Below, piece after piece: positions 1,304 to 59,835 of a stretch of 64,000 nt of DNA (position 1 is the stretch's first letter; each line of letters opens with the position of its first letter). The stretch is from Ischnura elegans (Eukaryota; Arthropoda; Insecta; Odonata; Coenagrionidae). The stretch lies in the NCBI RefSeq assembly GCF_921293095.1, contig NC_060258.1:4960001-5024000 (forward strand). The letters are read 5' to 3'. The translations under genes and the position numbers were made by a program. The notes under the pieces were generated by a model. It worked only from the letters and a program-made list of their open reading frames with translations, did no database searches and was not told the origin of the DNA.

Positions 1304-2828
1304 GACTCGCCGCGCTGCGCGCGCTCGTTAGGGGGCTACGCCCCCTAAAACCCCCCCGCATCCGGCTTCGCCGGCTGCCCCCACCGGACGGCTTCGCCGT
1401 CCCGCCCGCGGCGTCTCGGAACGGCTTCGCCGTTCCTCGTCTGGGGTCGGCTTCGCCGCCCAGATATCGAGGTAGCCCTGTGACGGAGACCCGCTTGTTC
1501 CTCGGAACGGCTTCGCCGTTCACCGTGGGAGGGCGGCTTCGCCGCACATGGGTTACCCGAGTCCCCCCGAGGCGTCCACTCCTGGTAACGGCATCGCCCT
1601 TCCTCTTGATGGGGCGGCTTCGCCGCCCAAGGTTTTCCTATGTCCCCCCGAGCCATCGACTTCTCGGAACGGCTTCGCCGTTCCTCGCCCGTGGTCGGCT
1701 TCGCCGCCCAAGGTTTACCTGTGCCCCCCCGAGCCGTCGCCTCCACCGGACGGCTTCGCCGTCCCACCCGCGGCGTCTCGGAACGGCTTCGCCGTTCCTC
1801 GTCAGGGGTCGGCTTCGCCGCCCAGATATCGAGGTAGCCCTGTGACGGAGACCCTCTTGTACCTCGGAACGGCTTCGCCGGTCATCGTGGGAGGGCGGCT
1901 TCGCCGCCCAAGTGTTACCCGAGTCCCCCCGAGGCTCGACTCTTGGTAACGGCATCGCTCTTCCTCGTGATGGGGCGGCTTCGCCGCCCAAGGTTTGCCT
2001 GGGTCCCCCCGAGCCATCGACTTCTCGGAACGGCTTCGCCGTTCCTTGCCCGTGGACGGCTTCGCCGCCCAAGGTTTACCTGTGTCCCCCCGAGCCGTCG
2101 CCTCCTCGGAACGGCTTCGCCGTTCCTCGCCTGTGGGCGGCTTCGCCGCCCGAGGGTTATCGGCGACCCGAATCCGGCTTCGCCGGCTGCCCCCACCGGA
2201 CGGCTTCGCCGTCCCACCCCCGACGTCTCGGAACGGCTTTGCCGTTTCTCGTCAGGGGTCGGCTTCGCCGCCCAGATATCGAGGTAGCCCTGTGACGGAG
2301 ACCCGCTAGTTCCTGGGAACGGCTTCGCCGTTCCTCGTGGGAGGGCGGCTTCGCCGCACAAGTGTTACCCGAGTCCCCCCGAGGCGTCGGCTCCTGGGAA
2401 CGGCATCGCCCTTCGTCGTGATGGGGCGGCTTTGCCGCCCAAGGTTTACCTGGGTCCCTCCGCGCCGTCGACTTCTCGGAACGGCTTAGCCGTTCCTCGC
2501 CCGTGGTCGGCTTCGCCGCCCAAGGTTTACCTGTGTACCCCCGGGCCATCGACTCCTCGGAACGGCTTCGCCGTTCCTCGCCCGTGGGCGGCTTCGCCGC
2601 CCAGGGGGTATCGTCGCCCTCCCCCCTCGTAAGACACACGTTCGGGTGCTCCGCGTGTCGGGGCGGATTCGCCGCCCGAGGGTTCTCGGAGTTTTTCCTC
2701 GCCTCTGACTCCTCGGAGTGCGTCCGACGTTCCTGGAGCTGGGGGAGCTTCGCCGCCCGGGTTTTCACTCCTTACCAAGCAGTGAGAACTACCGGCTATC
2801 CCCTATCGTTTACGAAGGCTGCCGGGGG
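1304..2828. repeat. GC-rich hairpin minisatellite block (type A)
   Basis: About 35 short palindromes in 1.5 kb, built on the core CGGC-TTC-GCCG with arms of several kinds: GGAACGGC/GCCGTTCC, GGGCGGC/GCCGCCC, GGACGGC/GCCGTCC and CCGGC/GCCGG. A GGAACGG-type and a GGGCGG-type hairpin alternate and are joined by near-constant linkers, giving a period of about 80 bp. A longer sub-pattern starting with the CCGGC hairpin recurs near 1366 and 2172. Long open frames in all six frames come from this repetition. Arg/Pro/Gly-rich translations of both strands change with every unit and match no family I know. Confidence 0.9.
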
Positions 2829-4564
2829 ATAATATTGGAGGATGTAGACGCATGCTAGCCGTGATTGTGGCATCTTTTTAATTTAAAACGATGTTTTTAA
2901 GGTGGTCCTGGGAGTTTCCAGGGTTTTTTTTGTGAGTGTACTGACTACGGTCACAAGCATCCTAAGAAATTACTTAGCGATGAGTCATAGGAGAAGGGAA
3001 TTACTGCTAAAATATGCTAAAACACCAAAGAACATGCTATTTACAGAAAAAAAATAATTTTTTCCCTGGTCTTCTAGGAGGGCACGTGAAATTTAGAGGG
3101 TTTTTCTTGCATAAAAGGTTTTTGTCTACCTACAATAAAAATTCCAGCGATCTAGCTGTAGGGAAACAATGAATTTTCCCGTATTATTAATATTTAGATT
3201 TCCAATTCTGTGTTCTCCACATAGCGGTGCATAGGCGCTTTAATAAGGCATAACTCCTGTGAATTTCGTAGCCGTACCTTATGGGGAAGTGGTTTAAAAA
3301 ATTCGCCTTTAGGTGTCCATGTCCATGAGCCCCTTTTATTACTCTACTATTTTGTTAAGAAATGTACATTTAAAAATTTGAAGTTTTATTGCGGGTGAGT
3401 AATTGGGGCAGGATAATTGAACATGACGCGTAAATATAGCCGACACAATTCCCATTCGGAATCAATAAAAACGATACACCTGGGATGAATGGTACACGAA
3501 ATATACGACTTATTAGGTAATTTTTATTTTTTTGGGGGGTTCACAGGGGGTTTTCGGGGGACCTAAAGTGCTTGTTCTGTATAACGCGGCATCCTTTACC
3601 TTGGATAAAAATTTCGGCTCTGTAGCTGTAGTGTAAGCATGCTTTTTCGACGGTGTCATCCGTTTAAATTAAGTATTCTGCGTTCTCCGGGTAGCGGCAC
3701 GTAGGGGCAACAAAAAGACGTCACTCACGTTAATTTCGTGGCCGTATGTCGTCGGGAAGTGGCAGAAAAAAATTCCGAAAAATTTAAAATCGTGTGTTGA
3801 GGGAATGCAAACTTCACGGCGGATGTATTGTAAGTTACCAAACGTTGTAGGAGTCGCAATTTCAATGGAAATACATAATCGTTAATAACTCGAAATTTGT
3901 TCGTCTTAAGGATACATGAAGATAGCCGAAAAATTGAATAAAAAATCTAGTATCTTGCATTTAAGTGAATTTGTCCTACGATTATTGCAAATTGGTGAAA
4001 AAAATTCCGAAATTCGGCCCATAAGAAAAGCATTGGAAATTTTAAATTGTTAAAAAAAATACTTTTAAACAAAAAATTGCAAAGGCAACCACACCAAAAA
4101 ATCAACCAAAAAATCTAGTGTCTCATACGTTAGGGACTTATTCCTACAACGATTTTAAGTTGGTTTTTAAAAAATCCAAAGATAGGCCCATAAGAAAAGC
4201 ATTGGAAATTTAAAAAAATTATAAAAAATACTTTCAATCAAAATATGGCAAAATGTTTCGCATCAAAAAATTTAACCAAAAAATCTAGTTTCCGTCAGTG
4301 AAATTTCATGTTCCGGTGACATTTTTAAGTAGGCAAATAATGGAATATGTTTTAGTCCCATAAGGCTCCAATGTTAATTCGGATCGATATATCTCGAAAA
4401 CCGATCGACTTTTTCGAGATTTCGGACTTTTCCCCCCGATGAATATTTTTTCTCCACTACCTGTAAAAATTTCGTCTTCCCAGCACGTCCGGAAGTGGTC
4501 GGGAATTTGTATACGTGAATCAGTGAGTGTGCTATCTGTCACACATCGGGTTGTATATAATATA
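1304..4564 (-). mobile_element. Array unit 1 (type A), Helitron-ended tandem unit
   Basis: A complete 3,261 bp unit. Read on the minus strand it starts with TCTATATTATATAC (close to the Helitron 5' consensus TCTMTAYTA), runs through an AT-rich half and then a hairpin-rich GC half. It ends with the hairpin TTAGGGGGC-loop-GCCCCCTAA and a second GC hairpin, ending GGCGAG. The next unit begins at once, with no target DNA between. No canonical Helitron CTRR end is visible at the junction, so the exact end is inferred. The AT half holds two ~466 bp direct repeats (marked by ttctcc...tagcgg near 3213 and 3679) and three ~170 bp repeats marked by AAAAAATCTAGT (near 3940, 4108 and 4282). No transposase is encoded. 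Confidence 0.75.
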
Positions 4565-6067
4565 GACTCGCCGCGCTGCGCGTGCTCGTTAGGGGGCTAC
4601 GCCCCCTAAAACCCCCCGCATCCGGCTTCGCCGGCTACCCCCACCGGACGGCTTCGCCGTCCACCCCGCAACTACTCGGAACGGCTTCGCCGTTCATCGA
4701 CGAGGGGTCGTCTTCGCCGCCCATATATTTAGGCAGCCCTCCGACAGACAGCAGCTGGTTCCTCGGAACGGCTTCGCCGTTCATCGTGTGAGGGCGGCTT
4801 CGCCGCACAAGGGTTACCCGAGTCCCCCCTAGGCGTGGACTCCTGGGAACGGCATCGCCCTTCCTCGTGCCGGGGCGGATTCGCCGCCCAAGGTTTACCG
4901 GTGTTCCCCCGAGACTGCGAAAACTCGGAACGGCTGCGCCGTTCCTCGCCGCCCCCATCGGACGGCTTCGCCGTCCCACCCGGGACTCCTTGGAACGGCT
5001 TCGCCGTTTCTCGTTGTGGGTCGGCTTCGCCGCCCATATGTTGAGGCAGCCATCCAACAGAAACCAGCTGGTACCTCGGAACGGCTTCGCCGTTCATCGT
5101 GTTAAGGCGGCTTCGCCGCCCATGGGTTACCCTGGTCCCCCCGAGGCGTGGACTCCTGGGAACGGCATCGCACTTCCTCGTGGCGGGGCGGCTTCGCCAC
5201 CCAAGGTTTACCGGTGTTCCCCCGCGCCTTCGACAACTCGGAACGGCTGCGCCGTTCCTCGCCTGTGGGCGGCTTCACCGCCCAAGGGTTATCTCGTCGT
5301 AATGGGGCGGCTTCGCCTCCCGAGGTTTACCTATTTCCCCGAGCCATCGCCTCCTCGGAACGGCTGCGCCGTTCCTCGCGTGAGGGCGGCTTCGCCGCCC
5401 AAGGGTTATCGGCGCCCTCCCTCGTTAGCTTCCTCGTAATGGGGCGGGTTCGCCGTCCAGGGTTTACCCGTGTTCCCCCGAGGCGTCGACTCCTGGGAAC
5501 GGCGTCGCCCTTCCGCGTGATAAGGCGGCTTCGCCGCCCAAGGTTTACTGTGTCCCCCCGAGCCGTCGACTCCTCGGAACGGCTTCGCCGTTCCTCGTCT
5601 GTGGGCGGCTTCGCCGCCCAAGGGTTATCGGCGCCCTCCCCCCGTTAGCTTCCTGGTGATGGGGCGCCTTCGCCGCCCAAGGTTTACCCGTGTCCCCCCG
5701 AGGCGTCGACTCCTGGGAACGGCATCGCCCTTCCGCGTGATGGGGCGGCTTCGCCGCCCAAGGTTTACTGTGTCCCCCCGAACCGTCGACTCCTCGGAAC
5801 GGCTTCGCCGTTCCTCGTCTTTGGGCGGCTTCGCCGCCCAAGGGTTATCGGCGCCCTCCCCCCTCGTAAGACACCCATTCGGCCGCTCCACGTGTTGGAG
5901 CGGATTTGCCGCCGGAGGGTTCTCGGAGGTTTTCCGCGCCTCTGACTCCTCGGAATGTCTCCGTCGTTCCTGGGGCGGGGGCAGCTTCGCTAGCGGGGGT
6001 TTCACTCCTCACAGAGCAATGCGTACTACCAGCTTTCCCCGATCGTTTACAAAGGCTGCCGGGGGAG
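4565..6067. repeat. GC-rich hairpin minisatellite block (type B)
   Basis: Same core hairpins as type A, with several GGAACGGC-TGC-GCCGTTCC members in which the loop is TGC instead of TTC while the 8 bp stem stays perfect. The linkers differ from type A (for example caagggttatcggcgccc is frequent). No gene is supported here. Confidence 0.88.
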
Positions 6068-7795
6068 AATGTGGCTGAATGTAGACGCATGCTAGCCGTG
6101 ATTGTGACATTTAAGCTTATGACGATGTTTCGAAGGGGGTCCGGGGGGTTTCCAGGGGTTTTTATGAGTATACTGACAACGGTCGCAATCATCCAAATAA
6201 ATTCCTTAGCGATGAGTCATAGGAGAAGGGAGTTACTGCTAAATATGCGAAAACACCGAAGAACATGCTATTCACAGAAAAAAAATAATTTTTTCCCTGG
6301 TCTTCTAGGAAGCCACGTGAAATATCGAGAATTTGTCTTGCATAAAAGGTCTTTGTCTACCTACAGTAAAAATTCCAGCGATCTAACTGTAGAGGAACAA
6401 TGAATTTTCCCGTATTACTCACATTTAGATAACCAATTATGTGTTCTCCTCATAGCGGTGCATAGGCGCTGAAATAAGGCATAATTAATGAGAATTTCGT
6501 AGCCGTACCTTATGGGGAAGTGGTTAAAAAAAATCGGTTTTAGGTGTCCTTGTCCTGGAACCCCTTTTTATTACTCTACTATTTTGTTAAGAAATGTACA
6601 TTTAAAAATTTGAAGTTTTATTTCGGGTGTGTAATTGGGGAAGGATAATTGAACATGACGCGTAAATATAGCCGACACGATTCCCATTCGGAATCAATGA
6701 AAACGATACAACTGGGATGAATGGTACACGAAATATACGACTTATTAAGTAATTTTTATTTTTTTGGGGGGGTCACAGGGGATTTTCGGGGGACCTAAAG
6801 TGCTTGGTCTGTATAACGCGGCATCGTTTACCTTGGTTAAAATTATCGGCTCTGTAGCTGTAGTGTAAGCATGCTTTTTCGACGGTGTCACCCCTTAAAA
6901 TGTAATATTCTGCGTTCTCCTGGTAGCGGCGCGTAGGGGCACGAGAAATACGTCAATCACCTGAATTTGGTGTCCGTACCACGTCGGGAAGTGGTAAAAA
7001 AAAATTCCGAAAAATTTAAAATCGTGTGTTGAGGGAATGCAAACTTCACGGCGGATGTGTTGTAAGTTACCAAACGTTGTAGGAGACGCAAATTCAATGA
7101 AAATACATAATCGTTAATTACTCGAAGTGTGATTAACATGTGGATATCAAAGGATAGCCAAAAAATTAGGAAAAAAATCTAGTGCCTTGCATTAAATTGA
7201 ATTGGTCCTACGAATATTGCAAATCGGTCAATAAAATTCCCAAAGTGAGCCCATAAGAAAAGCATTGGAAATTTGAAATTGTTAAAAAAAATACTTTTAA
7301 ACAAAAAATTGCAAAGGCGACCACACCAAAAAATCAACCAAAAATTCTAGTATCTCACAAGTTAAGGACTTATTCCTACAACGATTATAAGTTGGTTTTA
7401 AAAAAATCCAAAGATAGGCCCATAAGAAAAGCATTGGAAATTTAAAAAAATTATAAAAAATACATTTAAACAAAATATGGCAAAATGTTTCGCATCAAAA
7501 AATCGGCCAAAAAATCTAGTTTCCGTCAGTGAAATTTCACGTTCCCGTGACATTTTTAAGTAGGCAAATAATGGAATATGTTTTAGTCCCATAAGGCTCC
7601 AATGTTAATTCGGATCGATATATCTCGAAAACCGATCGACTTTTTCGAGTTTTCGGATTTTTCCCGCCGATGAATATTTTTTCTCCACAACCCGTAAAAA
7701 TTTCGTCTTCCCAGCACGTCCGGAAGCAGTCGGGAATTTGTATACGTGAATGAGTCAGTGAGCTATCTGTCACACATCGGGTTGTATATAATATA
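4565..7795 (-). mobile_element. Array unit 2 (type B), Helitron-ended tandem unit
   Basis: A 3,231 bp unit of the same build as unit 1 but of a second subtype. Its hairpin block differs in order and includes TGC-loop hairpins. Its AT half near 7096-7200 has a local variant (gaagtgtgattaacatg) that is otherwise seen only in the partial unit at 49835-51620. It is closest overall to unit 5 (14329-17558) in the GC half. Confidence 0.75.
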
Positions 7796-9320
7796 GACTC
7801 GCCGCGCTGCGCGCGCTCGTTAGGGGGCTACGCCCCCTAAAACCCCCCCGCATCCGGCTACGCCGGCTGCCCCCACCGGACGGCTTCGCCGTCCCGCCCG
7901 CGGCGTCTCGGAACGGCTTCGCCGTTCCTCGTCTGGGGTCGGCTTCGCCGCCCAGATATCGAGGTAGCCCTGTGACGGAGACCCGCTTGTTCCTCGGAAC
8001 GGCTTCGCCGTTCACCGTGGGAGGGCGGCTTCGCCGCACATGGGTTACCCGAGTCCCCCCGAGGCGTCCACTCCTGGTAAGGGCATCGCCCTTCCTCTTG
8101 ATGGGGCGGCTTCGCCGCCCAAGGTTTTCCTATGTCCCCCCGAGCCATCGACTTCTCGGAACGGCTTCGCCGTTCCTCGCCCGTGGTCGGCTTCGCCGCC
8201 CAAGGTTTACCTGTGCCCCCCCGAGCCGTCGCCTCCACCGGACGGCTTCGCCGTCCCACCCGCGGCGTCTCGGAACGGCTTCGCCGTTCCTCGTCAGGGG
8301 TCGGCTTCGCCGCCCAGATATCGAGGTAGCCCTGTGACGGAGACCCTCTTGTACCTCGGAACGGCTTCGCCGGTCATCGTGGGAGGGCGGCTTCGCCGCC
8401 CAAGTGTTACCCGAGTCCCCCCGAGGCTCGACTCTTGGTAACGGCATCGCTCTTCCTCGTGATGGGGCGGCTTCGCCGCCCAAGGTTTGCCTGGGTCCCC
8501 CCGAGCAATCGACTTCTCGGAACGGCTTCGCCGTTCCTTGCCCGTGGACGGCTTCGCCGCCCAAGGTTTACCTGTGTCCCCCCGAGCCGTCGCCTCCTCG
8601 GAACGGCTTCGCCGTTCCTCGCCTGTGGGCGGCTTCGCCGCCCGAGGGTTATCGGCGACCCGAATCCGGCTTCGCCGGCTGCCCCCACCGGATGGCTTCG
8701 CCGTCCCACCCCCGACGTCTCGGAACGGCTTTGCCGTTTCTCGTCAGGGGTCGGCTTCGCCGCCCAGATATCGAGGTAGCCCTGTGACGGAGACCCGCTA
8801 GTTCCTGGGAACGGCTTCGCCGTTCCTCGTGGGAGGGCGGCTTCGCCGCACAAGTGTTACCCGAGTCCCCCCGAGGCGTCGGCTCCTGGGAACGGCATCG
8901 CCCTTCGTCGTGATGGGGCGGCTTTGCCGCCCAAGGTTTACCTGGGTCCCTCCGCGCCGTCGACTTCTCGGAACGGCTTAGCCGTTCCTCGCCCGTGGTC
9001 GGCTTCGCCGCCCAAGGTTTACCTGTGTACCCCCGGGCCATCGACTCCTCGGAACGGCTTCGCCGTTCCTCGCCCGTGGGCGGCTTCGCCGCCCAGGGGG
9101 TATCGTCGCCCTCCCCCCTCGTAAGACACACGTTCGGGTGCTCCGCGTGTCGGGGCGGATTCGCCGCCCGAGGGTTCTCGGAGTTTTTCCTCGCCTCTGA
9201 CTCCTCGGAGTGCGTCCGACGTTCCTGGAGCTGGGGGAGCTTCGCCGCCCGGGTTTTCACTCCTTACCAAGCAGTGAGAACTACCGGCTATCCCCTATCG
9301 TTTACGAAGGCTGCCGGGGG
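7796..9320. repeat. GC-rich hairpin minisatellite block (type A)
   Basis: Near-identical copy of the block at 1304-2828, with the same hairpin order. All open frames here are shared with the other type A blocks and are taken as shadows of the repeat. Confidence 0.9.
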
Positions 9321-11069
9321 ATAATATTGGAGGATGTAGACGCATGCTAGCCGTGATTGTGGCATCTTTTTAATTTAAAACGATGTTTTTAAGGTGGTCC
9401 TGGGAGTTTCCAGGGTTTTTTTGTGAGTGTACTGACTACGGTCACAAGCATCCTAAGAAATTACTTAGCGATGAGTCATAGGAGAAGGGAATTACTGCTA
9501 AAATATGCTAAAACACCAAAGAACATGCTATTTACAGAAAAAAAATAATTTTTTCCCTGGTCTTCTAGGAGGGCACGTGAAATTTAGAGGGTTTTTCTTG
9601 CATAAAAGGTTTTTGTCTACCTACAATAAAAATTCCAGCGATCTAGCTGTAGGGAAACAATGAATTTTCCCGTATTATTAATATTTAGATTTCCAATTCT
9701 GTGTTCTCCACATAGCGGTGCATAGGCGCTTTAATAAGGCATAACTCCTGTGAATTTCGTAGCCGTACCTTATGGGGAAGTGGTTTAAAAAATTCGCCTT
9801 TAGGTGTCCATGTCCATGAGCCCCTTTTATTACTCTACTATTTTGTTAAGAAATGTACATTTAAAAATTTGAAGTTTTATTGCGGGTGAGTAATTGGGGC
9901 AGGATAATTGAACATGACGCGTAAATATAGCCGACACAATTCCCATTCGGAATCAATAAAAACGATACACCTGGGATGAATGGTACACGAAATATACGAC
10001 TTATTAGGTAATTTTTATTTTTTTGGGGGGTTCACAGGGGGTTTTCGGGGGACCTAAAGTGCTTGTTCTGTATAACGCGGCATCCTTTACCTTGGATAAA
10101 AATTTCGGCTCTGTAGCTGTAGTGTAAGCATGCTTTTTCGACGGTGTCATCCGTTTAAATTAAGTATTCTGCGTTCTCCGGGTAGCGGCACGTAGGGGCA
10201 ACAAAAAGACGTCACTCACGTTAATTTCGTGGCCGTATGTCGTCGGGAAGTGGCAGAAAAAAATTCCGAAAAATTTAAAATCGTGTGTTGAGGGAATGCA
10301 AACTTCACGGCGGATGTATTGTAAGTTACCAAACGTTGTAGGAGTCGCAATTTCAATGGAAATACATAATCGTTAATAACTCGAAATTTGTTCGTCTTAA
10401 GGATACATGAAGATGGCCGAAAAATTGAATAAAAAATCTTGTATCTTGCATTTAAGTGAATTTGTCCTACGATTATTGCAAATTGGTGAAAAAAATTCCG
10501 AAATTCGGCCTATAAGAAAAGCATTGGAAATTTTAAATTGTTAAAAAAAATACTTTTAAATAAAAAATTGCAAAGGCAACCACACCAAAAAATCAACCAA
10601 AAAATCTAGTGTCTCATACGTTAGGGACTTATTCCTACAACGATTTTAAGTTGGTTTTTAAAAAATCCAAAGATAGGCCCATAAGAAAAGCATTGGAAAT
10701 TTAAAAAAATTATAAAAAATACTTTCAATCAAAATATGGCAAAATGTTTCGCATCAAAAAATTGACCAAAAAATCTAGTTTCCGTCAGTGAAATTTCATG
10801 TTCCGGTGACATTTTTAAGTAGGCAAATAATGGAATATGTTTTAGTCCCATAAGGCTCCAATGTTAATTCGGATCGATATATCTCGAAAACCGATCGACT
10901 TTTTCGAGATTTCGGACTTTTCCCCCCGATGAATATTTTTTCTCCACTACCTGTAAAAATTTCGTCTTCCCAGCACGTCCGGAAGTGGTCGGGAATTTGT
11001 ATACGTGAATCAGTGAGTGTGCTATCTGTCACACATCGGGTTGTATATAATATAGATGTATATAGATAG
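7796..11069 (-). mobile_element. Array unit 3 (type A), Helitron-ended tandem unit
   Basis: A 3,274 bp unit lying 6,492 bp from unit 1 and nearly identical to it; only scattered single-base changes were noticed over 3 kb. Its right junction with unit 4 is unusual (11041-11071): about 16 extra bases of TATA-like sequence stand between the AT end and the GC hairpins. Confidence 0.75.
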
Positions 11070-12594
11070 GACTCGCCGCGCTGCGCGCGCTCGTTAGAGG
11101 GCTACGCCCCCTAAAACCCCCCCGCATCCGGCTTCGCCGGCTGCCCCCACTGGACGGCTTCGCCGTCCCATCCGCGGCGTCTCGGAACGGCTTTGCCGTT
11201 CCTCGTCAGGGGTCGGCTTTGCCGCCCAGATATCGAGGTAGCCCTGTGACGGAGACCCGCTTGTTCCTCGGAACGGCTTCGCCGTTCACCGTGGGAGGGC
11301 GGCTTCGCCGCACATGGGTTACCCGAGTCCCCCCGAGGCGTCCACTCCTGGTAACGGCATCGCCCTTCCTCTTGATGGGGCGGCTTCGCCGCCCAAGGTT
11401 TTCCTATGTCCCCCCGAGCCATCGACTTCTCGGAACGGCTTCGCCGTTCCTCGCCCGTGGTCGCCTTCGCCGCCCAAGGTTTACCTGTGCCCCCCCGAGC
11501 CGTCGCCTCCACCGGACGGCTTCGCCGTCCCACCCGCGGCGTCTCGGAACGGCTTCGCCGTTCCTCGTCAGGGGTCGGCTTCGCCGCCCAGATATCGAGG
11601 TAGCCCTGTGACGGAGACCCTCTTGTACCTCGGAACGGCTTCGCCGGTCATCGTGGGAGGGCGGCTTCGCCGCCCAAGTGTTACCCGAGTCCCCCCGAGG
11701 CTCGACTCCTGGTAACGGCATCGCTCTTCCTCGTGATGGGGCGCCTTCGCCGCCCAAGGTTTGCCTGGGTCCCCCCGAGCCATCGACTTCACGGAACGGC
11801 TTCGCCGTTCCTTGCCCGTGGACGGCTTCGCCGCCCAAGGTTTACCTGTGTCCCCCCGAGCCGTCGCCTCCTCGGAACGGCTTCGCCGTTCCTCGCCTGT
11901 GGGCGGCTTCGCCGCCCGAGGGTTATCGGCGACCCGAATCCGGCTTCGCCGGCTGCCCCCACCGGACGGCTTCGCCGTCCCACCCCCGACGTCTCGGAAC
12001 GGCTTTGCCGTTTTTCGTCAGGGGTCGGCTTCGCCGCCCAGATATCGAGGTAGCCCTGTGACGGAGACCCGCTAGTTCCTGGGAACGGCTTCGCCGTTCC
12101 TCGTGGGAGGGCGGCTTCGCCGCACAAGTGTTACCCGAGTCCCCCCGAGGCGTCGGCTCCTGGGAACGGCATCGCCCTTCGTCGTGATGGGGCGGCTTCG
12201 CCGCCCAAGGTTTACCTGGGTCCCTCCGCGCCGTCGACTTCTCGGAACGGCTTAGCCGTTCCTCGCCCGTGGTCGGCTTCGCCGCCCAAGGTTTACCTGT
12301 GTACCCCCGGGCCATCGACTCCTCGGAACGGCTTCGCCGTTCCTCGCCCGTGGGCGGCTTCGCCGCCCAGGGGGTATCGTCGCCCTCCCCCCTCGTAAGA
12401 CACACGTTCGGGTGCTCCGCGTGTCGGGGCGGATTCGCCGCCCGAGGGTTCTCGGAGTTTTTCCTCGCCTCTGACTCCTCGGAGTGCGTCCGACGTTCCT
12501 GGAGCTGGGGGAGCTTCGCCGCCCGGGTTTTCACTCCTTACCAAGCAGTGAGAACTACCGGCTATCCCCTATCGTTTACGAAGGCTGCCGGGGG
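11070..12594. repeat. GC-rich hairpin minisatellite block (type A)
   Basis: Type A hairpin block with a handful of point differences from the other type A blocks, such as gcgccttcgccgccc where the others have gcggcttcgccgccc. No gene is supported. Confidence 0.9.
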
Positions 12595-14328
12595 ATAATA
12601 TTGGAGGATGTAGACGCATGCTAGCCGTGATTGTGGCATCTTTTTAATTTAAAACGATGTTTTTAAGGTGGTCCTGGGAGTTTCCAGGGTTTTTTTGTGA
12701 GTGTACTGACTACGGTCACAAGCATCCTAAGAAATTACTTAGCGATGAGTCAGAGGAGAAGGGAATTACTGCTAAAATATGCTAAAACACCAAAGAACAT
12801 GCTATTTACAGAAAAAAAATAATTTTTTCCCTGGTCTTCTAGGAGGGCACGTGAAATTTAGAGGGTTTTTCTTGCATAAAAGGTTTTTGTCTACCTACAA
12901 TAAAAATTCCAGCGATCTAGCTGTAGGGAAACAATGAATTTTCCCGTATTATTAATATTTAGATTTCCAATTCTGTGTTCTCCACATAGCGGTGCATAGG
13001 CGCTTTAATAAGGCATAACTCCTGTGAATTTCGTAGCCGTACCTTATGGGGAAGTGGTTTAAAAAATTCGCCTTTAGGTGTCCATGTCCATGAGCCCCTT
13101 TTATTACTCTACTATTTTGTTAAGAAATGTACATTTAAAAATTTGAAGTTTTATTGCGGGTGAGTAATTGGGGCAGGATAATTGAACATGACGCGTAAAT
13201 ATAGCCGACACAATTCCCATTCGGAATCAATAAAAACGATACACCTGGGATGAATGGTACACGAAATATACGACTTATTAGGTAATTTTTATTTTTTTGG
13301 GGGGTTCACAGGGGGTTTTCGGGGGACCTAAAGTGCTTGTTCTGTATAACGCGGCATCCTTTACCTTGGATAAAAATTTCGGCTCTGTAGCTGTAGTGTA
13401 AGCATGCTTTTTCGACGGTGTCATCCGTTTAAATTAAGTATTCTGCGTTCTCCGGGTAGCGGCACGTAGGGGCAACAAAAAGACGTCACTCACGTTAATT
13501 TCGTGGCCGTATGTCGTCGGGAAGTGGCAGAAAAAAATTCCGAAAAATTTAAAATCGTGTGTTGAGGGAATGCAAACTTCACGGCGGATGTATTGTAAGT
13601 TACCAAACGTTGTAGGAGTCGCAATTTCAATGGAAATACATAATCGTTAACAACTCGAAATTTGTTCGTCTTAAGGATACATGAAGATAGCCGAAAAATT
13701 GAATAAAAAATCTAGTATCTTGCATTTAAGTGAATTTGTCCTACGATTATTGCAAATTGGTGAAAAAAATTCCGAAATTCGGCCCATAAGAAAAGCATTG
13801 GAAATTTTAAATTGTTAAAAAAAATACTTTTAAACAAAAAATTGCAAAGGCAACCACACCAAAAAATCAACCAAAAAATCTAGTGTCTCATACGTTAGGG
13901 ACTTATTCCTACAACGATTTTAAGTTGGTTTTTAAAAAATCCAAAGATAGGCCCATAAGAAAAGCATTGGAAATTTAAAAAAATTATAAAAAATACTTTC
14001 AATCGAAATATGGCAAAATGTTTCGCATCAAAAAATTGACCAAAAAATCTAGTTTCCGTCAGTGAAATTTCATGTTCCGGTGACATTTTTAAGTAGGCAA
14101 ATAATGGAATATGTTTTAGTCCCATAAGGCTCCAATGTTAATTCGGATCGATATATCTCGAAAACCGATCGACTTTTTCGAGATTTCGGACTTTTCCCCC
14201 CGATGAATATTTTTTCTCCACTACCTGTAAAAATTTCGTCTTCCCAGCACGTCCGGAAGTGGTCGGGAATTTGTATACGTGAATCAGTGAGTGTGCTATC
14301 TGTCACACATCGGGTTGTATATAATATA
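11070..14328 (-). mobile_element. Array unit 4 (type A), Helitron-ended tandem unit
   Basis: A 3,259 bp type A unit directly following unit 3. The terminal hairpin near 11096 carries one stem mismatch (TTAGAGGGC against GCCCCCTAA), unlike the perfect stems in the other units. The AT half is almost identical to those of units 1 and 3. Confidence 0.75.
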
Positions 14329-15830
14329 GACTCGCCGCGCTGCGCGCGCTCGTTAGGGGGCTACGCCCCCTAAAACCCCCCGCATCCGGCTTCGCCGGCT
14401 GCCCCCACCGGACGGCTTCGCCGTCCACCCCGCGACTACTCGGAACGGCTTCGCCGTTCCTCGCCAAAGGGGCCGTCTTCGCCGCCCATATATTTAGGCA
14501 GCCCTCCGACAGACAGCAGCTGGTTCGTCGGAACGGCTTCGCCGTTCATCGTGTGAGGGCGGCTCCGCCGCAGAAGGGTTAACCGAGTCCTCCCTAGGCG
14601 TGGACTCCTGGGAACGGCATCGCCCTTCCCCGTGCCGGGGCGGCTTCGCCGCCCAAGGTTTACCGGTGTTCCCCCAGGACTGCGACAACTCGTAACGGCT
14701 GCGCCTTTCCTCGCCACCCCCACCGGACGGCTTCGCCGTCCCACCCGTGACTCCTCGGAACGGCTTCGCCGTTTCTCGTTGTGGGTCGGCTTCGCCGCCC
14801 ATATATTGAGGCAGCCCTCCAACAGACACCAGCTAGTACCTCGGAACGGCTTCGCCGTTCATCGTGTTAGGGTGGCTTTGCCGCCCAAGGTTTACCCGAG
14901 TCCCCCTGAGGCCTGGACTCCTGGGAACGGCATCGCCCTTCCTCGTGGCGGGGCGGCTTTGCCTTCCAAGGTTTACCAGTGTTCCCCCGCGCCTTCGACA
15001 GCTCGAAACGGCTGCGCAGTTCCTCGCCTGTGGGCGGCTTCACTGCCCAAGGGTTATCTTGTCGTAATGGGGCGGCCACGCCTCCCAAGGTTTACCTATT
15101 TCCCCGAGCCATCGCCTCCTCGGAACGGCTGCGCCGTTCCTCGCGTGAGGGCCGCTTCGCCGCCCAAGGGTTATCGGCGCCCTCCCTCGTAAGCTTCCTC
15201 GTAATGGGGTGGGTTCGCCGCCCAGGATTTACCCGTGTTCCCCCGAGGCGTCGACTCCTGGGAACGGCGTCGCCCTTCCACGTGATAGGGCGGCTTCGCC
15301 GCCCAAGGTTTACTGTGTCCCCCCGAGCCGTCGACTCCTCGGAACGGCTTCGCCGTTCCTCGTCCGTGGGCGGCTTCGCCGCCCAAGGGTTATCGGCGCC
15401 CTACCCCCGTAAGCTTCCTGGTGATGGGGCGCCTTCGCCGCCCAAGATTTACCCGTGTCCCCCCGAGGCGTCAACTCCTGGGAACGGCATCGCCCTTCCG
15501 CGTGATGGGGCGGCTTCGCCGCCCAAGGTTTACTGTGTCCCCCCGAACCGTCGACTCCTTGGAACGCATTCGCCGTTCCTCGTCTTTGGGCGGCTTCGCC
15601 GCCCAAGGGTTATCGGCGCCCTCCCCCCTCGTAAGACACCCATTCGGCTGCTCCACGTGTTGGAGCGGATTTGCCGCCCGAGGGTTCTCGGAGGGTTTCC
15701 GCGCCTCTGACTCCTTGGAATGTCTCCGTCGTTCCTGGGGAGGGGGCAGCTTCGCCGCCAGGGTTTTCACTCCTCACAGAGCAATGCGTACTACCAGATT
15801 TCCCCGATCGTTTACAAAGGCTGCCGGGGG
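14329..15830. repeat. GC-rich hairpin minisatellite block (type B)
   Basis: Type B hairpin block, matching 4565-6067 in order but with more scattered substitutions. Several substitutions break stems, for example ggaacgcattcgccgttcc near 15562. Confidence 0.88.
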
Positions 15831-17558
15831 ATAATGTGGCTGAATGTACACGCATGCTAGCCGTGATTGTGGCATTTTAGCTTATGACGATGTTTTGAAG
15901 GGGGTCCGGGGGATTTCCAGGGGTTTTTATGAGTATACTGGCAACGGTCGCAATCATCCAAATAAATTCCTTAGCGATGAGTCATAGGAGAAGGGAATTA
16001 CTGCTAAAATATGCGAAAACACCGAAGAACATGCTATTCACAGAAAAAAATAATTTTTTCCCTAGTCTTCTTGGAAGCCACGTGATATATCGAGGGGTTT
16101 TCCTGCATAAAAGGTCTTTGTCTACTTACAGTAAAAATACCAGCGATGTAACTGTAGGGGAACAATGAATTTTCCCGTATTACTCACATTTAGATTACCA
16201 ATTCTGTGTTTTCCAAATAGCGGTGCATAGGCGCTGTAATAAGGCATAACTAATGTGAATTTCGTAGCCGTACGTTATGGGGAAGTGGTTTAAAAAAATC
16301 GGTTTTAGGTGTCCTTGTCCTGGAACCCCTTTTATTACTCTACTATTTTGTTAAGAAATGTACATTTAAAAGTTTGAAGTTTTATTGCGGGTGTGTAATT
16401 GGGGCAGGATAATTGAACATGACGGGTAAATATAGCCGACACAATTCCCATTCGGAATCAATAAAAACGATACAACTGGGATGAATGGTACACGAAATAT
16501 ACGACTTATTAAGTAATTTTTTTTTTTTTGGGGGGGTCACAGGGGGTTTTCGGGGGTCCTAAAGTGCTTGTTCTGTAAAACGCGGCATCGTTAACCTTGG
16601 ATAAAAATTTCAGCTCTGCAGCTGTAGTGTAAGCATGCTTTTTCGACGGTGTCACCCGTTAAAATTAAATATTCTGCGTTCTCCTGGTAGCGGCGCGTAC
16701 GAGCACGAGAAAGACGTCAATCACCTGAATTTGGTGTCCGTACCACGTCGGGAAGTGGTAAAAAAAAATTCGGAAAAATTTAAAATCGTGTGTTGAGGGA
16801 ATGCAAACTTCACGGCGGATGTGTTGTAAGTTACCAAACGTTGTAGGAGTCGCAATTTCAATGGAAATACATAATCGTTAATAACTCGAAATTCTTTCGT
16901 CTTTTGGATACATGAAGATAGCCGAAAAATTGAATAAAAAATCTAGTATCTTGCATTTAAGTGAAATTGTCCTACGATTAATGCAAATTGGTGAAAAAAA
17001 TTCCGAAATTCGGCCCATAAGAAAAGCATTGGAAATTTTAAATTGTTAAAAGAAATACTTTTAATCAAAATATTGCAAAGACGACCACATCAAAAAATCA
17101 ACCAAAAAATCTAGTACCTCATACGTTAAGGACTTATTCCTACAACGATTATAAGTTGGTTTTAAAAAAATTCAAAGAAAGGCCCATAAGAATAGCATTG
17201 GAAATTTAAAAAAATTATAAAAAATACTTTCAATCAAAATACGGCTAAATGGTTCACATCAAAAATCGGCCAAAAAATCTAGTTTCCGTCAGTGAAATTT
17301 CACGTTCCAGTGACGTTTGCAAGTAGGCGAAGAATGGAAAAAGTTTTAGTCCCATAAGGCTCCAATGTTAATTCGGATCGATATATCTCGAAAACCGATC
17401 GACTTTTTCGAGTTTTCGGATTTTTCCCGCCGATGAATATTTTTTCTCCACGACCTGTAAAAATTTCGTCTTCCCAGCACGTCCGGAAGCGGTCGGGAAT
17501 TTGTATACGTGAATGAGTCAGTGAGCTATCTGTCACACATCGGGTTGTATATATTATA
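14329..17558 (-). mobile_element. Array unit 5 (type B), abuts Helitron copy 1
   Basis: A 3,230 bp type B unit whose right end is fused directly to the 3' end of the Helitron at 17559. The junction sequence is the same as between two array units. The last ~400 bp of its AT half differ by several percent from the matching unit next to the second Helitron (57120-57522), whereas the Helitrons themselves are almost identical. Confidence 0.75.
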
Positions 17559-17678
17559 GACTCGCCGCGCTGCGCGCGCTCGCTAGGGGGCTACGCCCCC
17601 TAGAACCCCCGCCGCGGCCGGCTGCGCCGTCCGCGCCCCGAACGGCTTCGCCGTTCCCCGACTTCGTCGGGTGTCGGC
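17559..17678 (-). promoter_or_regulatory. Helitron 3' terminal and subterminal hairpins
   Basis: On the minus strand this is the 3' end of the element. It holds a perfect 9 bp stem with a three-base loop (17583-17603, CTAGGGGGC/GCCCCCTAG), then a second GC hairpin (CGCGC-GCA-GCGCG on the minus strand). Inside lie an AACGGC-TTC-GCCGTT hairpin at 17641-17655 and a CCCGAC-TTC-GTCGGG hairpin at 17658-17672. Helitron 3' ends typically carry such a hairpin as replication terminator; that function is inferred. The array units have TTAGGGGGC/GCCCCCTAA at the same place, a compensated base-pair change. The same 120 bp is immediately upstream of the plus-strand gene at 17679. Confidence 0.75.
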
Positions 17679-18252
17679 ATGTCCCCCGGTGTGAACCGAA
17701 TCGTGTCGTGCATCAACGGGTAAGTATTCGGAGGGGAAAGGTATCGACCACGTGAGTTTGAACTCCGTACCTCGTTCCGCAGTGCTCTTAAATATGTTTT
17801 CAAATTTTTCGAATGCGGGGGTTGCGTTCCCCTTGTCGATCGTCGAAATCGCCCTGGCGTCGAAGAAGCACCGTTTTCCTCCCCCGCCGATATCCCCTGG
17901 CGATCTCTCACTGTGATAATACTTTCCGGAAAGATTTCGGAGATGGAAACTGGTGCATTGTGCACGTACGTTGACAATAAGGATAATGATTGGGATGCTC
18001 GTGATATATCCCGTTGTGCGGTTTGCATCGTAAGTTTTACCACGGCAAAGAAGTACGAAGAAGAAATTTTCGCTCAAAGTAAGCAATCTTTTTCTCTTTC
18101 TATCGAGCGTACAGATGTTATCACCCACTGCATTTGCCAATCGGAAGCCAAATACGGTGAAGGAAGACATTGGAATCCACGAGCAATCGTTCGTGGAGAG
18201 GAACGCAAAGTCTGCCTTAAGTAATTTTATGCAGTGTTCACCTGCGAAATGA
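17679..18252 (+). CDS. Putative three-exon gene inside the Helitron, antisense to Rep; unknown function
   Basis: Exons 17679-17719, 17783-18029 and 18115-18252 give a 141-residue protein. The introns are 63 and 85 nt, with strong signals: GG|GTAAGT to CCGCAG, and ATC|GTAAGT to CGTACAG after a pyrimidine-rich tract. Phases match at both joins and translation ends in a TGA at 18250. The protein begins MSPGVNRIVSCING, has a FFECGGC stretch, a charged segment VDNKDNDWDARD, further cysteines (SRCAVCI) and ends NFMQCSPAK. I do not recognise a family. It sits between the Helitron terminal hairpins and the 3' side of Rep, on the opposite strand, and is unchanged in the second copy, so it is either a captured host gene or an accessory gene. 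A long minus-strand open frame over the same bases (17583-18338) lacks an ATG at its start and is probably its shadow. No transcript evidence is available. Confidence 0.5.
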
Positions 18253-19128
18253 ATACGGAATCGGAATTGGTTATGCTTGCGTCGTAAAGACGTGGCACTA
18301 ATTGAAAAGTCCGTGAAATGGCTTTCGATTGTTGCCACCCCCTCGCCACGTTGAGGCTGCAGTTAGGATTTGAGAGGGGCATGCACTACAACCACTACTA
18401 AGTATTAGCTAAATGTACACAGACAGATGTCTCTGATATTGAAAGACGCGTACGTATTACTCGTAATAGAGAACGTAGAAATAAATACAAGGCGTCAGTG
18501 ATCATGAAAATCAAGTTTAGGTACATATACATTCACGTAGGTGTGGCAGGAATAGCTGAGATCCTGTGACATGAATTTCAAGCAATGCTAAGATAGAGAA
18601 AACTTTAGTCGTATTTCGTAACTTAATTGCAACAATTTATGTACGTTAGTAAGACGGCTCCAAGTTGATAAATTGATACGCATGCAGATTGTGATTTACA
18701 AGGTTGTAAATAGTTAGAATGCGGTGATATGGTGTGGGAAAGTTGAGTAGCATAACACTGAGAAATATGTAAATATAGGCATAACACGGTGAACATACAT
18801 CACAAAAGATATCATAGCAGTTCCTTTAAAATTAAGTGTATATAAAATGCAGAAAATGTGGTACAAGAAGGGAGAAAGAAACGACTATATTACAGTGCAA
18901 TGTTAATGGAACTAATAATGGTTAATTTTTGTATATTTTCTCTTGTTCATGCGTACTACTTAATGCTATATTTCCAAACTGAAAAGGTAACATGCATAGG
19001 TTAGATGATCATAGTTTTTATGGATTCATTTTTTTGTATTTTCTAATTTTTGGTAAGTTATTGTAAGTGTGCACCTATGACGGTGACATTGTAACGCAGC
19101 GTGTAGGTGAAGGGCTATAAAAAGTTAA
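18253..19128. other. AT-rich Helitron interior, no gene seen
   Basis: About 0.9 kb of AT-rich sequence between the plus-strand gene and the 278-bp repeat block. No open frame, splice series or internal repeat that I can support. It is carried unchanged in the second Helitron copy. Confidence 0.6.
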
Positions 19129-19848
19129 TTTTTAGGCCCATTTTCCATGAGTTATTTCCTCGCAAACGTCCCTGGTGACCTTGTCCCTACTCGAATAATC
19201 CGGAGACCGGCCTGTGGTTACGGCGCTTGGTCTTCGTGATGGTATATACCGATGACGATGGAAGGCAAGCCAGGTTCTTTTGCCACCCTTCTCCACTGAT
19301 ATCACGGAAATGACGGAGTATGGAGATAATTTTTTGCATCCTCGTAAATTAAATGCAATCCAGCGACGATATTGGAATCGGTGACATCACTTCAATAGGT
19401 AGAGAGATATTCTTCGTAGAAATGGACTGTGCGTGTAGTGGGGAAACCCTAGGTGGCCTTCTCCCTACTCCTCGATCCCGGAGACCGGCCTGTAGAAACG
19501 GCACGGGTCTCCCTACGATATATACCGATGGCGATGGAAGGCCGGCGAGGGTCGTCACACTCACACCACTCCACTGTAGTCTTACGAGATGGTAGGCGAT
19601 GTAGGCACTCGTTTGCGTAATCGTTAGTGATATTTAATCCAGCGACGATTATGGATTCGGTGACTTCCCATTAAGCAGGCGATTGTATGTCTTTGCGGAA
19701 ATGTACTCTCCATGCGGTGGAAACACCCAAGGTAGCCTTCTCCCTACTCTACAAATCCGGAGACCGGCCTGTAGACACGGCACCTAGTCTCCCTAATGGT
19801 ATATACCGCTGACGATGCAAGGCACGCTTGGGGTCATCTCAAAGAGAC
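19129..19848. repeat. Three diverged ~278 bp direct repeats inside the Helitron
   Basis: Three copies, the first partial, are marked by ccggagaccggcctgt near 19200, 19481 and 19759 (spacing about 280 and 278 bp), followed by gtatataccg. Copies two and three also share the upstream aatccagcgacgat segment. In copies two and three GGAGACC...GGTCTCC (or GGAGAC...GTCTCC) can fold into a hairpin around the CGGCCTGTAG stretch. The block lies just downstream of the Rep-helicase stop codon on the minus strand. Role unknown; accessory replication or transcription signals are possible. Confidence 0.75.
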
Positions 19849-19871
19849 GTGTGAAATCAATGAACAATTCC

Positions 19872-22800
19872 TCATAGTAAAAGCTCTGGGAAAACCACGT
19901 TTTTGGCGTAAGGTATCCCATCGATGAGTTTCTTCGGCGGAACGAGTACGATTATGTCTTCCGGCCTTCTCACGCGGCTCAATAAAACGTAGAGTAGACC
20001 GTGAGTGAAACAGTCGGTTCTGAGGTCCACTCCGACGTACTCTATAGTCTGGCCCTGGCTCTTATGTCCTGTCATGGAGTATGCTAAGGCCAAGGGGAAC
20101 TGGCGGCGGAGTATTTTAAGCGGAGAACCTTCGGTGAATGGGAATATGAAACTGATCCGGGGTATGCCGATGAGGTGTGTCTTCCCGGGAATTCGGACCG
20201 TGACGAGGCGGCGTGTAATAGCAGTCACGATGACTTTGGTCCCATTCACCAGTCCGTCTGCAATATTCAAATTCCTGATGATTAGGCATACCGATCCGAC
20301 CTTGAGGCGCAAAACGTGGTCCGGAATGCCTTTTCCGGATGCCTTGTTCAACAGTTGGATGTCCACATCGAGTCCCTCGTCGTCTTCTTTGTAGACGCTG
20401 TCGGCGCTCCTCAGCTCATGCAGGCATCCTTCGTAAGAGTCGAGAACTAACTCATTTATTTCCTTGACGTTTACATTCAACGTGGAAAGAATCGCTCTCT
20501 TTGCGCAGAGCTCGGGTTGGCTCAGAACGCAGGGTGGAAAGACCTCGTCGATAAGTTGCCGCAGAGATGTCACAGCCCTTAGTCCTCGAAGTGGTATCAG
20601 CGTCTCTTGTAGCCGTCCCTCGCCGAAGGGGATGGAGTCGATGGTGCCGTTGCCAACCTGGAGGAGGAAGTCGGAGTAATCCTTGCAGTTACTCGTTCGT
20701 TGTGGCGTTGTCAAGGAAAATACCTTGAAGATCCTCCACATCGGTGACGACCGCAGGGAAACACGCGCTACATCTGCGGGGGTGCGCGCTTTTTCCACGA
20801 CGGGTGGGATTTGCCTAAAGTCACCGGAACAGACGAATATCTTTCCTCCGAACGGCAAATCATTATCCATAAGATCCCTAAGTGACCTATCTATAATTTG
20901 AAACAAAAAGTGATGAGCCATCGGTGCCTCGTCGAAGATAATGATTTTTGCTTCTCTCACGAGTTGAGCCCGCTGCGAACCGTTGCTCACGTTCCAATAT
21001 CCAGTTCCGTCCCCTAAATCGAGGGGGAGGCGGAACATGCTGTGGGCCGTAGTCCCTCCTTCCATGTTGGACGCCGCGATCCCCGAGCTGGCAACTGCCA
21101 AAGCAACAAATCCGTGTCCGCGCGCGTACGCTAGAATGACGCTGATGAGTGCGGTTTTTCCATAGCCGCCCGGCCCGTCGAGGAACAATATTCTATCCCC
21201 TCTTATTTCATCCTGGATGAGGGTTTTGACGTGGGAGAAAGCACGTTTCTGGTCCTCGGAAAGCCTTGGCTCCCACTCCTCCACGAAAGACCTCAACTGT
21301 TCCCTTCCGTAACGAACCTGCTCTCTACTCAATTCGGTAGTGTCGTCGTCGACGTGCGGAAGCCCGTGATCGGTGAGACAAGAACCCTGACGCCTGAGGC
21401 TCCTATCGATAGCTAAAAGAGTTAATCGGTACGCTACCTCGGGGTTTTCGGGATGCCGGTCTAAATGATCCTCACTCAGGGCATCCTTAAATTTCTCCCA
21501 AAGGATGGCCGCTGGTGCGCCTACATTGCAGAGAAGAACGAAGAATGACCGCAATGCATTTGCAAGCATGAACGCCGAGGCCTCTTTCATGGCATCGCTG
21601 AATTCCTCCTCGTCCTCGATCAAGCCTAAAGTACGCGCGACTTCCTGAAACGTGCGGCAATGACCTACCCCGCGGGACAAAAGGTCGGCGTAACCACGGC
21701 AAGGAGTGGTCATGAGAAGGATCCTTAAGTAATACTGTTCGCCTCGGTTAGGTGAAATCCAAAGCAACCTACAGACTTTTTCCCCGCGCTTGCGAGCGGT
21801 AACGTAATGCACGCCGTCCGGGTGCTCGAAAAAGACGTCAGTACGCGGAGAACGGGAGTGGACTATGCACGTCTCGTAAAAACTCTGGTACGTCAAGTCG
21901 TCAAAAATGGGGTCTCGCGGACGGTCGAAGTAAATCATTAATTTGGAAGAGGCGGAAGACGCGATTTCTGTCAAATTACTCTCGCGAGGCCTGTATATGA
22001 CTTGTTGTTTCCCTTCCAAGTGGACGGGAAGGCATTCCACGGTGGGCTCCAATTTAGAAATGGGGAACTCAAGCAAACGCCAGCAGGCGTCGCTGGCGCC
22101 TATCATGCGCTTTGTGGCATACTGCTCGACCTCGTTCTCTTGCAATCCTATCGGGGTCACGGTGACGTTTTGCAGTGAGCCACCCTTCATTAGGTATTTA
22201 AACAAATATTTAACTACGCGGCGAGTGGATGCAAGTTCTAAGTTTATGTGCGCCTCGTACTTCAACATCAACGCGGCGTTGTACGGGACCACCCATCCGT
22301 CGTGCACTGTAATTTCCCTGCGTCGCGTGGTGATAATCCCCCGATTCGAATAATTGCGCCTATACTGAACGAAACCTCTTTCGTCCACGTGGGTTGTTTC
22401 GCAAGACGGTTTGGGATAGAATTTACCGCAACAACCTTTCGCGTCATCCCAACATGGAAAGTCGGTGCGGTAGTCGGTACCGCACGGGCCGTGGATCATG
22501 TGTTGCAATACTAATTTCCTAAGTCGTCCACCGGCCTCGTAGTCGGATGGAATGTCTGCGCGAATTACCTCGTCGATTTCTGCCGCTTGTACCGGTTCCC
22601 CTCCGTGTACCTTGAAAACTATGTGCGCGTGAGGCAATCCCCGCATTTGCATTTCGATGACGTAGACGAAGTAGGCGGGGCGCCCAAAAAATGCTCCGCT
22701 ACGCAAGTCCCTTATCAATTCCCCGAGCTTAATGCTAAATATCCTGCAGGCTGTGGAAGGATCACTGCGCTTGCTTCCGTGGGGGCACGCCTTACTATTT

Positions 22801-23135: not shown

Positions 23136-23147
23136 TTGCCACGCCTG

Positions 23148-25306: not shown

Positions 25307-25453
25307 CGCGGAAGGTGAAAAAAGTATCAGAGGCAGATTGTGTTTATACTCACTTATTGGAAGAGACTGTTGGATGTAAGGAAATTCAAACACCTGGATA
25401 GGGAGTCCTCGGTATAACCTGTAAATGATTATTGCAATATCACAGTGAAACAA

Positions 25454-57522: not shown

Positions 57523-57642
57523 GACTCGCCGCGCTGCGCGCGCTCGCTAGGGGGCTACGCCCCCTAGAACCCCCGCCGCGGCCGGCTGCGCCGTCCGCGC
57601 CCCGAACGGCTTCGCCGTTCCCCGACTTCGTCGGGTGTCGGC

Positions 57643-58216
57643 ATGTCCCCCGGTGTGAACCGAATCGTGTCGTGCATCAACGGGTAAGTATTCGGAGGGG
57701 AAAGGTATCGACCACGTGAGTTTGAACTCCGTACCTCGTTCCGCAGTGCTCTTAAATATGTTTTCAAATTTTTCGAATGCGGGGGTTGCGTTCCCCTTGT
57801 CGATCGTCGAAATCGCCCTGGCGTCGAAGAAGCACCGTTTTCCTCCCCCGCCGATATCCCCTGGCGATCTCTCACTGTGATAATACTTTCCGGAAAGATT
57901 TCGGAGATGGAAACTGGTGCATTGTGCACGTACGTTGACAATAAGGATAATGATTGGGATGCTCGTGATATATCCCGTTGTGCGGTTTGCATCGTAAGTT
58001 TTACCACGGCAAAGAAGTACGAAGAAGAAATTTTCGCTCAAAGTAAGCAATCTTTTTCTCTTTCTATCGAGCGTACAGATGTTATCACCCACTGCATTTG
58101 CCAATCGGAAGCCAAATACGGTGAAGGAAGACATTGGAATCCACGAGCAATCGTTCGTGGAGAGGAACGCAAAGTCTGCCTTAAGTAATTTTATGCAGTG
58201 TTCACCTGCGAAATGA
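57643..58216 (+). CDS. Putative three-exon gene inside Helitron copy 2; unknown function
   Basis: Exons 57643-57683, 57747-57993 and 58079-58216, the same model as at 17679-18252, with the same splice sites, phases and 141-residue product. Being unchanged adds no independent support, since the whole element is almost unchanged. It would make two copies if both are transcribed. Confidence 0.48.
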
Positions 58217-59812: not shown

Positions 59813-59835
59813 GTGTGAAATCAATGAACAATTCC

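Follow-up and report, generated by a model that had tools for sequence, protein, structure and literature searches.

Arrays of GNA-Loop Hairpins in Helitron-Related Repeat Units of Ischnura elegans

Among the hallmarks of Helitrons is a hairpin close to the 3′ end; the look that is required of it is poorly defined. In Helraiser, the palindrome spans 19 bp, has the loop ATT, and lies 11 nt from the CTAG end. This hairpin is described as the transposition terminator: A change of the loop that includes the base pair at the loop foot acts as a deletion, a foreign stem with an unchanged loop retains about 90% activity, and bypass of the terminator takes downstream DNA along (PMC4778049). Head-to-tail Helitron arrays are regarded as support for rolling-circle copying (PMC5876387), and tandem repeats within or derived from Helitrons as well as tandem Helitron arrays have been described for plants, bats, oyster, and Drosophila DINE-TR1 (PMC12628747, PMC8268682, PMC5876387). 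In the passages searched of the literature on Helitrons and such hairpin sequences, we found no hairpin array of the type reported below.

Here, we analyzed a stretch of 64,000 nucleotides of Ischnura elegans (the window; G000:C13:4960001-5024000) together with the 1.72 Gb assembly of 110 contigs, which was searched as a whole. For the dense hairpin block at positions 1304-2828 we consider the following explanation probable: The block forms the subterminal region at the 3′ end of non-autonomous Helitrons, a family mobilized by the adjacent RepHel Helitron; its terminator-type hairpins were multiplied by copying, and those of the array now mostly decay as ordinary copies do, with constraint on the terminal one.

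Tandem units and autonomous Helitrons in the window

Five head-to-tail units of ~3.2 kb each, all on the - strand, span positions 1306-17560 (1306..4566, 4567..7797, 7798..11071, 11072..14330, and 14331..17560), and each is composed of an AT-rich part and a GC-rich hairpin block. The first whole unit starts with TC..., ends with ...CGAG, and is directly fused to its neighbor; its hairpin block (1306..2848, -) makes up the 3′ portion when read on the Helitron strand and has 30 exact CGGC-NNN-GCCG cores. Within this block, the tandem structure (1499..2624, -) comprises 81-bp monomers with two hairpins apiece and a 451-bp higher-order repeat. The third unit carries an additional 5′-end piece (11057-11071) at its right end ahead of the next unit, and the fifth adjoins an autonomous Helitron. 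Hairpin units form another array at about 49.8-57.5 kb (annotated feature 51623..57524, -), and both arrays adjoin an autonomous Helitron on the - strand. The boundary between two units reads ...GCGCGGCGAG at the end of one and TC...TATATACAACCC at the start of the following one on this strand, and one of the eight head-to-tail junctions in the window has 15 additional bases. A partial second 5′ end, similar to a 5′ variant beside other Helitron copies, was observed at the junction 11038-11072. Genome-wide, GGAACGGCTTCGCCGTTCC occurs at 3,125 sites and its reversed control at none.

The autonomous Helitron, which we term F1 (17561..27127, -), has its 3′ end at 17561, and its homology to one other copy stops at 27127. 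Comparison of these two copies places the 5′ end probably at this position, with TCTAGCTACGG in L038 aligned to TGTAGCTACGG in the window. A second autonomous F1 copy (57525..64000, -) runs beyond the window. As in the Helitron superfamily, the Rep/helicase ORF (19872..23135, -) encodes Helitron_like_N and PIF1 domains (PF14214, E 1.9e-28; PF05970, E 9.3e-50), and a hairpin is present close to the 3′ end; the translation shows the motifs HAH and KYLFKY. The units share the CGAG end and the terminal hairpin with this autonomous element, which identifies them as its non-autonomous counterparts, and the ORF list (at least 150 aa) contains no Rep/helicase ORF within them. The 3′ terminus is CGAG in F1, F2, F3 (the latter two being older families), and the units, instead of the canonical Helitron1 CTRR. 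Because of this CGAG end, which is read from one clean outer flank (L017) and from the junctions, we do not file the element as a canonical Helitron1. The end was set at CGAG because in L017 unrelated DNA starting with T directly follows it. In seven of eight separate autonomous loci, the Helitron 3′ end is joined, as judged by eye, to an apparent unit 5′ end: A group of four similar copies on C13 (taken as a single locus), L013-L016, L059, and L060 are joined, and L017 is unjoined. A protein search with 42 scored matches from 2,448 candidates yielded Helitron groups of 98-100%, 83-84%, 71%, and 46-47% identity plus a partial match at 96%. For the F4 Helitron (~47% identity), L061 and L062, which extend to 2.8 kb past the ORF of one copy, yielded no 3′ end.

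Several further features of the window were recorded alongside. An ORF upstream of the Rep ORF (24329-25453, -) matches Herpes_teg_N (PF04843, E 5.6e-8), which may be cysteine-protease-like, and a 45-bp tandem repeat (24226-24326) lies mostly within the second Helitron ORF. Segmental duplication ~40 kb apart, which includes the autonomous Helitron, relates 14839-24036 to 54819-64000 and 24037-34000 to locus L018; the part past 24037 has 99.96% identity over 9,964 bases. Moreover, there is a direct duplication of 2.05 kb (35281-37334 and 37443-39495, 99.5% identity), and two duplicated pairs are found at 44202-45409 and 46824-48029 (99.2%) and at 40625-41737 and 48101-49211 (97.6%).

Density and loop class of the hairpins

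The 1,525 bases of window 1304-2828 comprise 30 exact CGGC-NNN-GCCG cores, or 33 if up to one stem mismatch is allowed, and 200 dinucleotide shuffles of the block gave a mean of 0.29 exact cores and a maximum of 2; perfect stems of at least six pairs number 21, compared with a shuffle mean of 2.97 and a maximum of 11. The original prediction of about 35 hairpins per 1.5 kb was thus right about the density but somewhat too high in number. Its several self-complementary arm kinds were recovered, among them GGAACGGC, GGGCGGC, GGACGGC, and TTAGGGGGC, as was its full range of loops: The 167 exact cores of the whole window display TTC (146), TTT (8), TGC (8), TTA (3), TAC (1), and TCC (1). The cores are likewise plentiful in 20 dispersed units (L039-L058), with 8-29 exact cores per 1,700-base excerpt and 8-30 in the units overall.

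On the Helitron strand, one loop class prevails. Inner arms with at least six pairs fall into 22 kinds, of which eight were seen in at least three contexts; GNA is the commonest loop in all eight, although several of them have the CGGC core in common and are not independent. Their middle bases cover all four possibilities (GAA, GCA, GTA, and GGA), and the loop is closed by C-G in seven and by T-A in one (GGCGGT). A ninth kind, CCCGAC, is found in F1 only and has the loop GAA; the remaining 13, each in one or two contexts, have no GNA loop. Among 893 hairpins with at least five pairs, for which the loci were oriented by their majority loop, 826 present GNA on the Helitron strand, which together with the C-G closure of seven of the eight common kinds corresponds to a C(GNA)G triloop. 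Another 57 carry other loops, most commonly AAA (26), a product of CpG decay, and the remaining 10 are reversed, eight of them amid reversed neighbors and two adjacent in L047. The latter two (~701-840) lie within a normal block and perhaps mark a small local inversion.

Loop events in the array on the tree of the 81-bp monomers, described below, affect the middle base 18 times and the outer bases 18 and 27 times, the 27 at a CpG. Because they show no preference for the middle base, GNA in the array may simply be the identity of a founder. Perfect GGAACGGC hairpins were considered as independent support for GNA and rejected in this capacity: A sample of 242 contains 224 GNA and 18 other loops, with three TTC (GNA on the opposite strand), but by kind there are 4 GNA versus 8 other. 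For GGAACGGC-NNN-GCCGTTCC, the 100 matches listed among 4,321 all have GNA (GAA, GCA, GGA, or GTA), come from one contig, and are in many cases situated in arrays; as the stem is palindromic, sites may count on both strands, so that 4,321 is not a site total. A DNA folding program assigned equal energy to both strands for the four hairpins tried and, for this reason, does not bear on GNA or strand preference.

Change in the array hairpins and in the terminal hairpin

The original prediction had proposed that stems stay paired, and its suggested check was whether paired substitutions exceed chance. The former does not agree with the frequent variants that hold unrepaired mismatches: Unique monomer rows contain 80 C-C and 100 T-C among 4,500 pairs. 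Column 18 of the first hairpin is C in 117 of 608 rows with a partner column that is mostly C, and column 33 is T in 118 of 701 rows with a partner that is almost always C. The C-C mismatch in column 18 also characterizes a widespread ATC-loop variant (1584-1603 and 8076-8095), and in the copy at 8076-8095 a C>G change re-pairs the mismatch.

The latter was examined on a monomer tree from 713 matches, 524 of which are gap-free over both hairpins, with 300 of those unique; another 189 rows were dropped for gaps in columns 3-47, and slid partner columns served as control. The first hairpin underwent 104 one-sided and 2 two-sided changes, 1 of which keeps the pair, and the second 106 and 2, of which none keeps it. 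Since the slid controls contain 0-3 two-sided and 0-1 pair-keeping changes, we directly observed no excess of paired changes among the 300 unique monomers (210 one-sided, 4 two-sided, 1 pair-keeping). Likewise, the 175 pairs in the four long blocks of the window had undergone no two-sided and 4 one-sided changes, and variable columns amount to 4 of 350 in stems, 3 of 75 in loops, and 18 of 1,055 in spacers. Across the tree, ~7.3 changes per column fall on stems, 10.5 on loops, and 11.1 on near spacers, so that the loops are no more variable than the spacers. For the array, tree and block comparisons thus largely gave the outcome that the original prediction had named as contrary to it, i.e., changes without pairing partners. 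A contrast between internal and terminal positions was rejected: Its odds ratio of 0.44 (p 6e-6) against all spacers became 0.65 (p 0.087) against well-aligned spacers and 0.69 (p 0.14) on a tree of well-aligned columns, and it is not relied upon. As a test of constraint versus recency for the stems, it is not significant against well-aligned spacers, than which the stems changed just somewhat less. Separately, non-CpG transitions on the + strand of the 81-bp monomers from the sampled loci number 46 C>T versus 15 G>A in stems and 15 C>T versus 53 G>A in spacers, as raw counts regardless of base content.

These data bear on the possible, if unlikely, reading that the hairpins of the array work together, namely as extra or decoy terminators or as roadblocks by which the displaced strand stays folded, which would favor read-through into the next unit and joint travel of the units, with selection on the fold. 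The lower rate of change in stems than in loops and near spacers speaks for it, as do the nearly uniform loop polarity with GNA in 826 of 893 hairpins and the unit 5′ ends directly after autonomous 3′ ends in seven of eight separate loci. It is opposed by the single pair-keeping double among 214 tree events and the window blocks with 4 one-sided and no two-sided changes, by the common unrepaired mismatch variants (117 of 608 and 118 of 701 rows), and by the fact that units with as few as 8 and as many as 30 exact cores have spread; polarity and loop are moreover explicable by plain descent.

The terminal hairpin was approached by a comparison of families, in which the differences listed here were directly observed. 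In the first unit, TTAGGGGGC-GTA-GCCCCCTAA (1328..1348, -), the presumed rolling-circle terminator, is flanked by a near-terminal hairpin CGCGC-GCA-GCGCG (Helitron strand; 1311..1323, -), which occurs in units and F1 and is absent from the F2 and F3 copies examined, and by the first internal hairpin CCGGC-GAA-GCCGG (1362..1374, -), a candidate seed that aligns with the sole internal hairpin of those copies. The stem of the terminal hairpin is TTAGGGGGC/GCCCCCTAA in five of six units, the copy at 11072 differing by one base, and CTAGGGGGC/GCCCCCTAG in the two autonomous copies of the window. A second unit family has TTAAGGGGC-GGA-GCCCCTTAA, and F2 and F3 have AGGGGGC-GGA-GCCCCCT. The original prediction of a compensated change between the Helitron and the units (CTAGGGGGC/GCCCCCTAG to TTAGGGGGC/GCCCCCTAA) is therefore confirmed and joined by a second case, TTAAGGGGC/GCCCCTTAA; the pairs altered on both sides between families number two, few events that lie below statistical testing.

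Across the genome, 888 places match the terminal frame GCTCG-N4-GGGGC-N3-GCCCC-N4-AACCCC; since these copies are related to one another, they do not represent independent events. With longer flanks, the exact unit form has 307 matches, and 43 of the 100 listed terminal hairpins of this form have another within 10 kb. Among 100 listed frame places, 95 have perfect nine-pair stems, TTAG.../...CTAA or TTAA.../...TTAA, and 5 are otherwise. On the Helitron strand, 872 of the 888 have the loop G-N-A; in terms of the + strand, the middle base is G or T in 31, the first base is changed in 4, and the third, a CpG, in 12. A and C are the two common states of the middle base, and its 31 variants are spread over nine contigs and over either stem form, with 20 of them on contig C19. 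By family, the loop is GGA in the F2 and F3 copies, GTA in F1, and GTA, GGA, GCA, or GAA in units. This pattern is suggestive of a terminal loop that varies mainly at its middle base and retains G-N-A. Of the earlier proposal that the folded form matters, one half appears to hold: The fold most likely matters at the terminal hairpin but not demonstrably in individual array hairpins.

We regard it as unlikely that the array is a plain minisatellite, which grew from a palindromic seed by slippage or unequal exchange and in which shape is irrelevant to copying or function, terminal hairpin included. Tandem periods of 81-451 bp, array loop events without middle-base preference, and single stem changes on the monomer tree that chiefly break pairs (174 versus 10 that restore them) are all in line with such an origin. 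It does not account well for a terminal hairpin in which two pairs changed with compensation between families and the loop varies mostly at its middle base, for common arm kinds that are all self-complementary and share one loop class, or for the demonstrated role of the 3′ hairpin in Helraiser (PMC4778049).

The original prediction had also offered that the copying mechanism favors palindromes, which received little support, since 2 of 893 hairpins, adjacent in one locus, seem flipped among normal neighbors. Template switching between the arms during replication, which would make and mend stems so that palindromes persist without selection, is improbable. The mechanism was put forward for RNA hairpins on the basis of their reconstructed histories (PMC8794818) and might be favored by single-stranded replication, and the perfect arms are indeed diverse outside the common CGGC core; but a swap of arms can invert loops, and we found 10 of 893 reversed, eight amid reversed neighbors and two in L047 amid normal ones, with pair-restoring changes as rare as 10 against 174 breaking ones. 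That the hairpins act as RNA, either as small-RNA precursors or as structured transcripts, is highly improbable: The excess of G.T over A.C leaf mismatches on the + strand (119 versus 84) speaks for it, and against it stand the lack of an Rfam match at gathering score within the window and a conserved loop class that is a DNA-stable triloop on the opposite strand.

Growth of the array and comparison with known systems

Returning to the favored explanation of terminator-type hairpins multiplied by copying, we directly observed a graded series of hairpin numbers. F2 and F3, each represented by one copy and one 2-kb stretch, have two hairpins: The 3′ ends of the 84% and 71% groups (L059 and L060) comprise the terminal hairpin and one CGGC-NNN-GCCG at the aligned place, with the loop AAA in L059 and GAA in L060. 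The F1 3′ end has five. In addition to its terminal hairpin CTAGGGGGC-GTA-GCCCCCTAG (17583..17603, -), it contains CGGC-GCA-GCCG (17619..17629, -), which has a longer perfect stem in L013 and L015; GAACGGC-GAA-GCCGTTC (17640..17656, -), the inner arms of which are those of the first monomer hairpin; and CCCGAC-GAA-GTCGGG (17657..17671, -). Decay is visible in F1 copies with the loop GCC in the CGGC internal hairpin (L016, L017) and GAT in the CCCGAC hairpin (L009), and another F1 hairpin has a G-T pair in L014 and L016. The suggestion that a Helitron 3′ end with like hairpins was the seed is supported by the five hairpins of F1 and by the alignment of the single internal hairpin of F2 and F3 to the first internal hairpin of the units, and the intermediate expansions that were to be sought in other Helitron families are present as a progression from two (F2/F3) to five (F1) to 8-30 cores (units).

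By analogy with Helraiser, we infer that the outermost hairpin is the rolling-circle terminator; the paired stem change of the terminal hairpin and the conservation of its loop class fit the behavior of the Helraiser terminator. Its structure would be constrained such that pairing and the G-N-A loop are kept while the stem letters differ by family. The other hairpins would have been multiplied from one or a few internal ones by tandem duplication (periods of, e.g., 81, 220, 313, and 451 bp), the probable route being slippage or renewed priming where stable hairpins formed during a single-stranded stage of the element. In this process, stable hairpins on the displaced strand may have promoted the duplication of the very segments that bear them. 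Dense hairpins need not mean selection on every one of them, which corrects the earlier idea.

The loop class invites a further comparison. The stability of the minihairpin CGCGAAGCG is generally shared by the C(GNA)G class, and such minihairpins have natural uses, e.g., in phage N4 promoters. CGCGAAGCG itself has been named an extraordinarily stable minihairpin with a Tm of 88.5 °C (PMC10527192). The commonest hairpin here, CGGCGAAGCCG on the Helitron strand, contains GCGAAGC and thereby the minihairpin d(GCGAAGC), which in the literature consulted otherwise appears as a chemical or biotechnological motif and is here part of a natural element. We put forward, as a tentative and rather unlikely idea, that some Helitrons use a C(GNA)G minihairpin as terminator, favored because it would fold on the displaced strand and resist single-strand binding protein, and that arrays of tens of terminators would tune the rolling-circle stop and thereby give rise to tandem arrays of units. 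One genome provides 888 terminal hairpins from several families for defining the Helitron 3′ hairpin, and a candidate loop rule (G-N-A with a free middle base) together with a series from two to thirty hairpins makes both the rule and the route of expansion testable.

With Helraiser and Helibat1, as far as they are described in the sources consulted, the present element shares a palindrome near the 3′ end of a RepHel element, exchangeable stem letters, an important loop, and head-to-tail junctions. It differs from Helraiser in its GNA loop, its CGAG end, and up to ~30 more hairpins ahead of the terminal one. Compared with Helitron-derived arrays and satellites, the repeated item is here a terminator-like hairpin next to the 3′ end, with a further tandem level formed by whole units. 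The structure is thus one of known themes, Helitron 3′ ends and Helitron-borne tandem repeats, in a new form.
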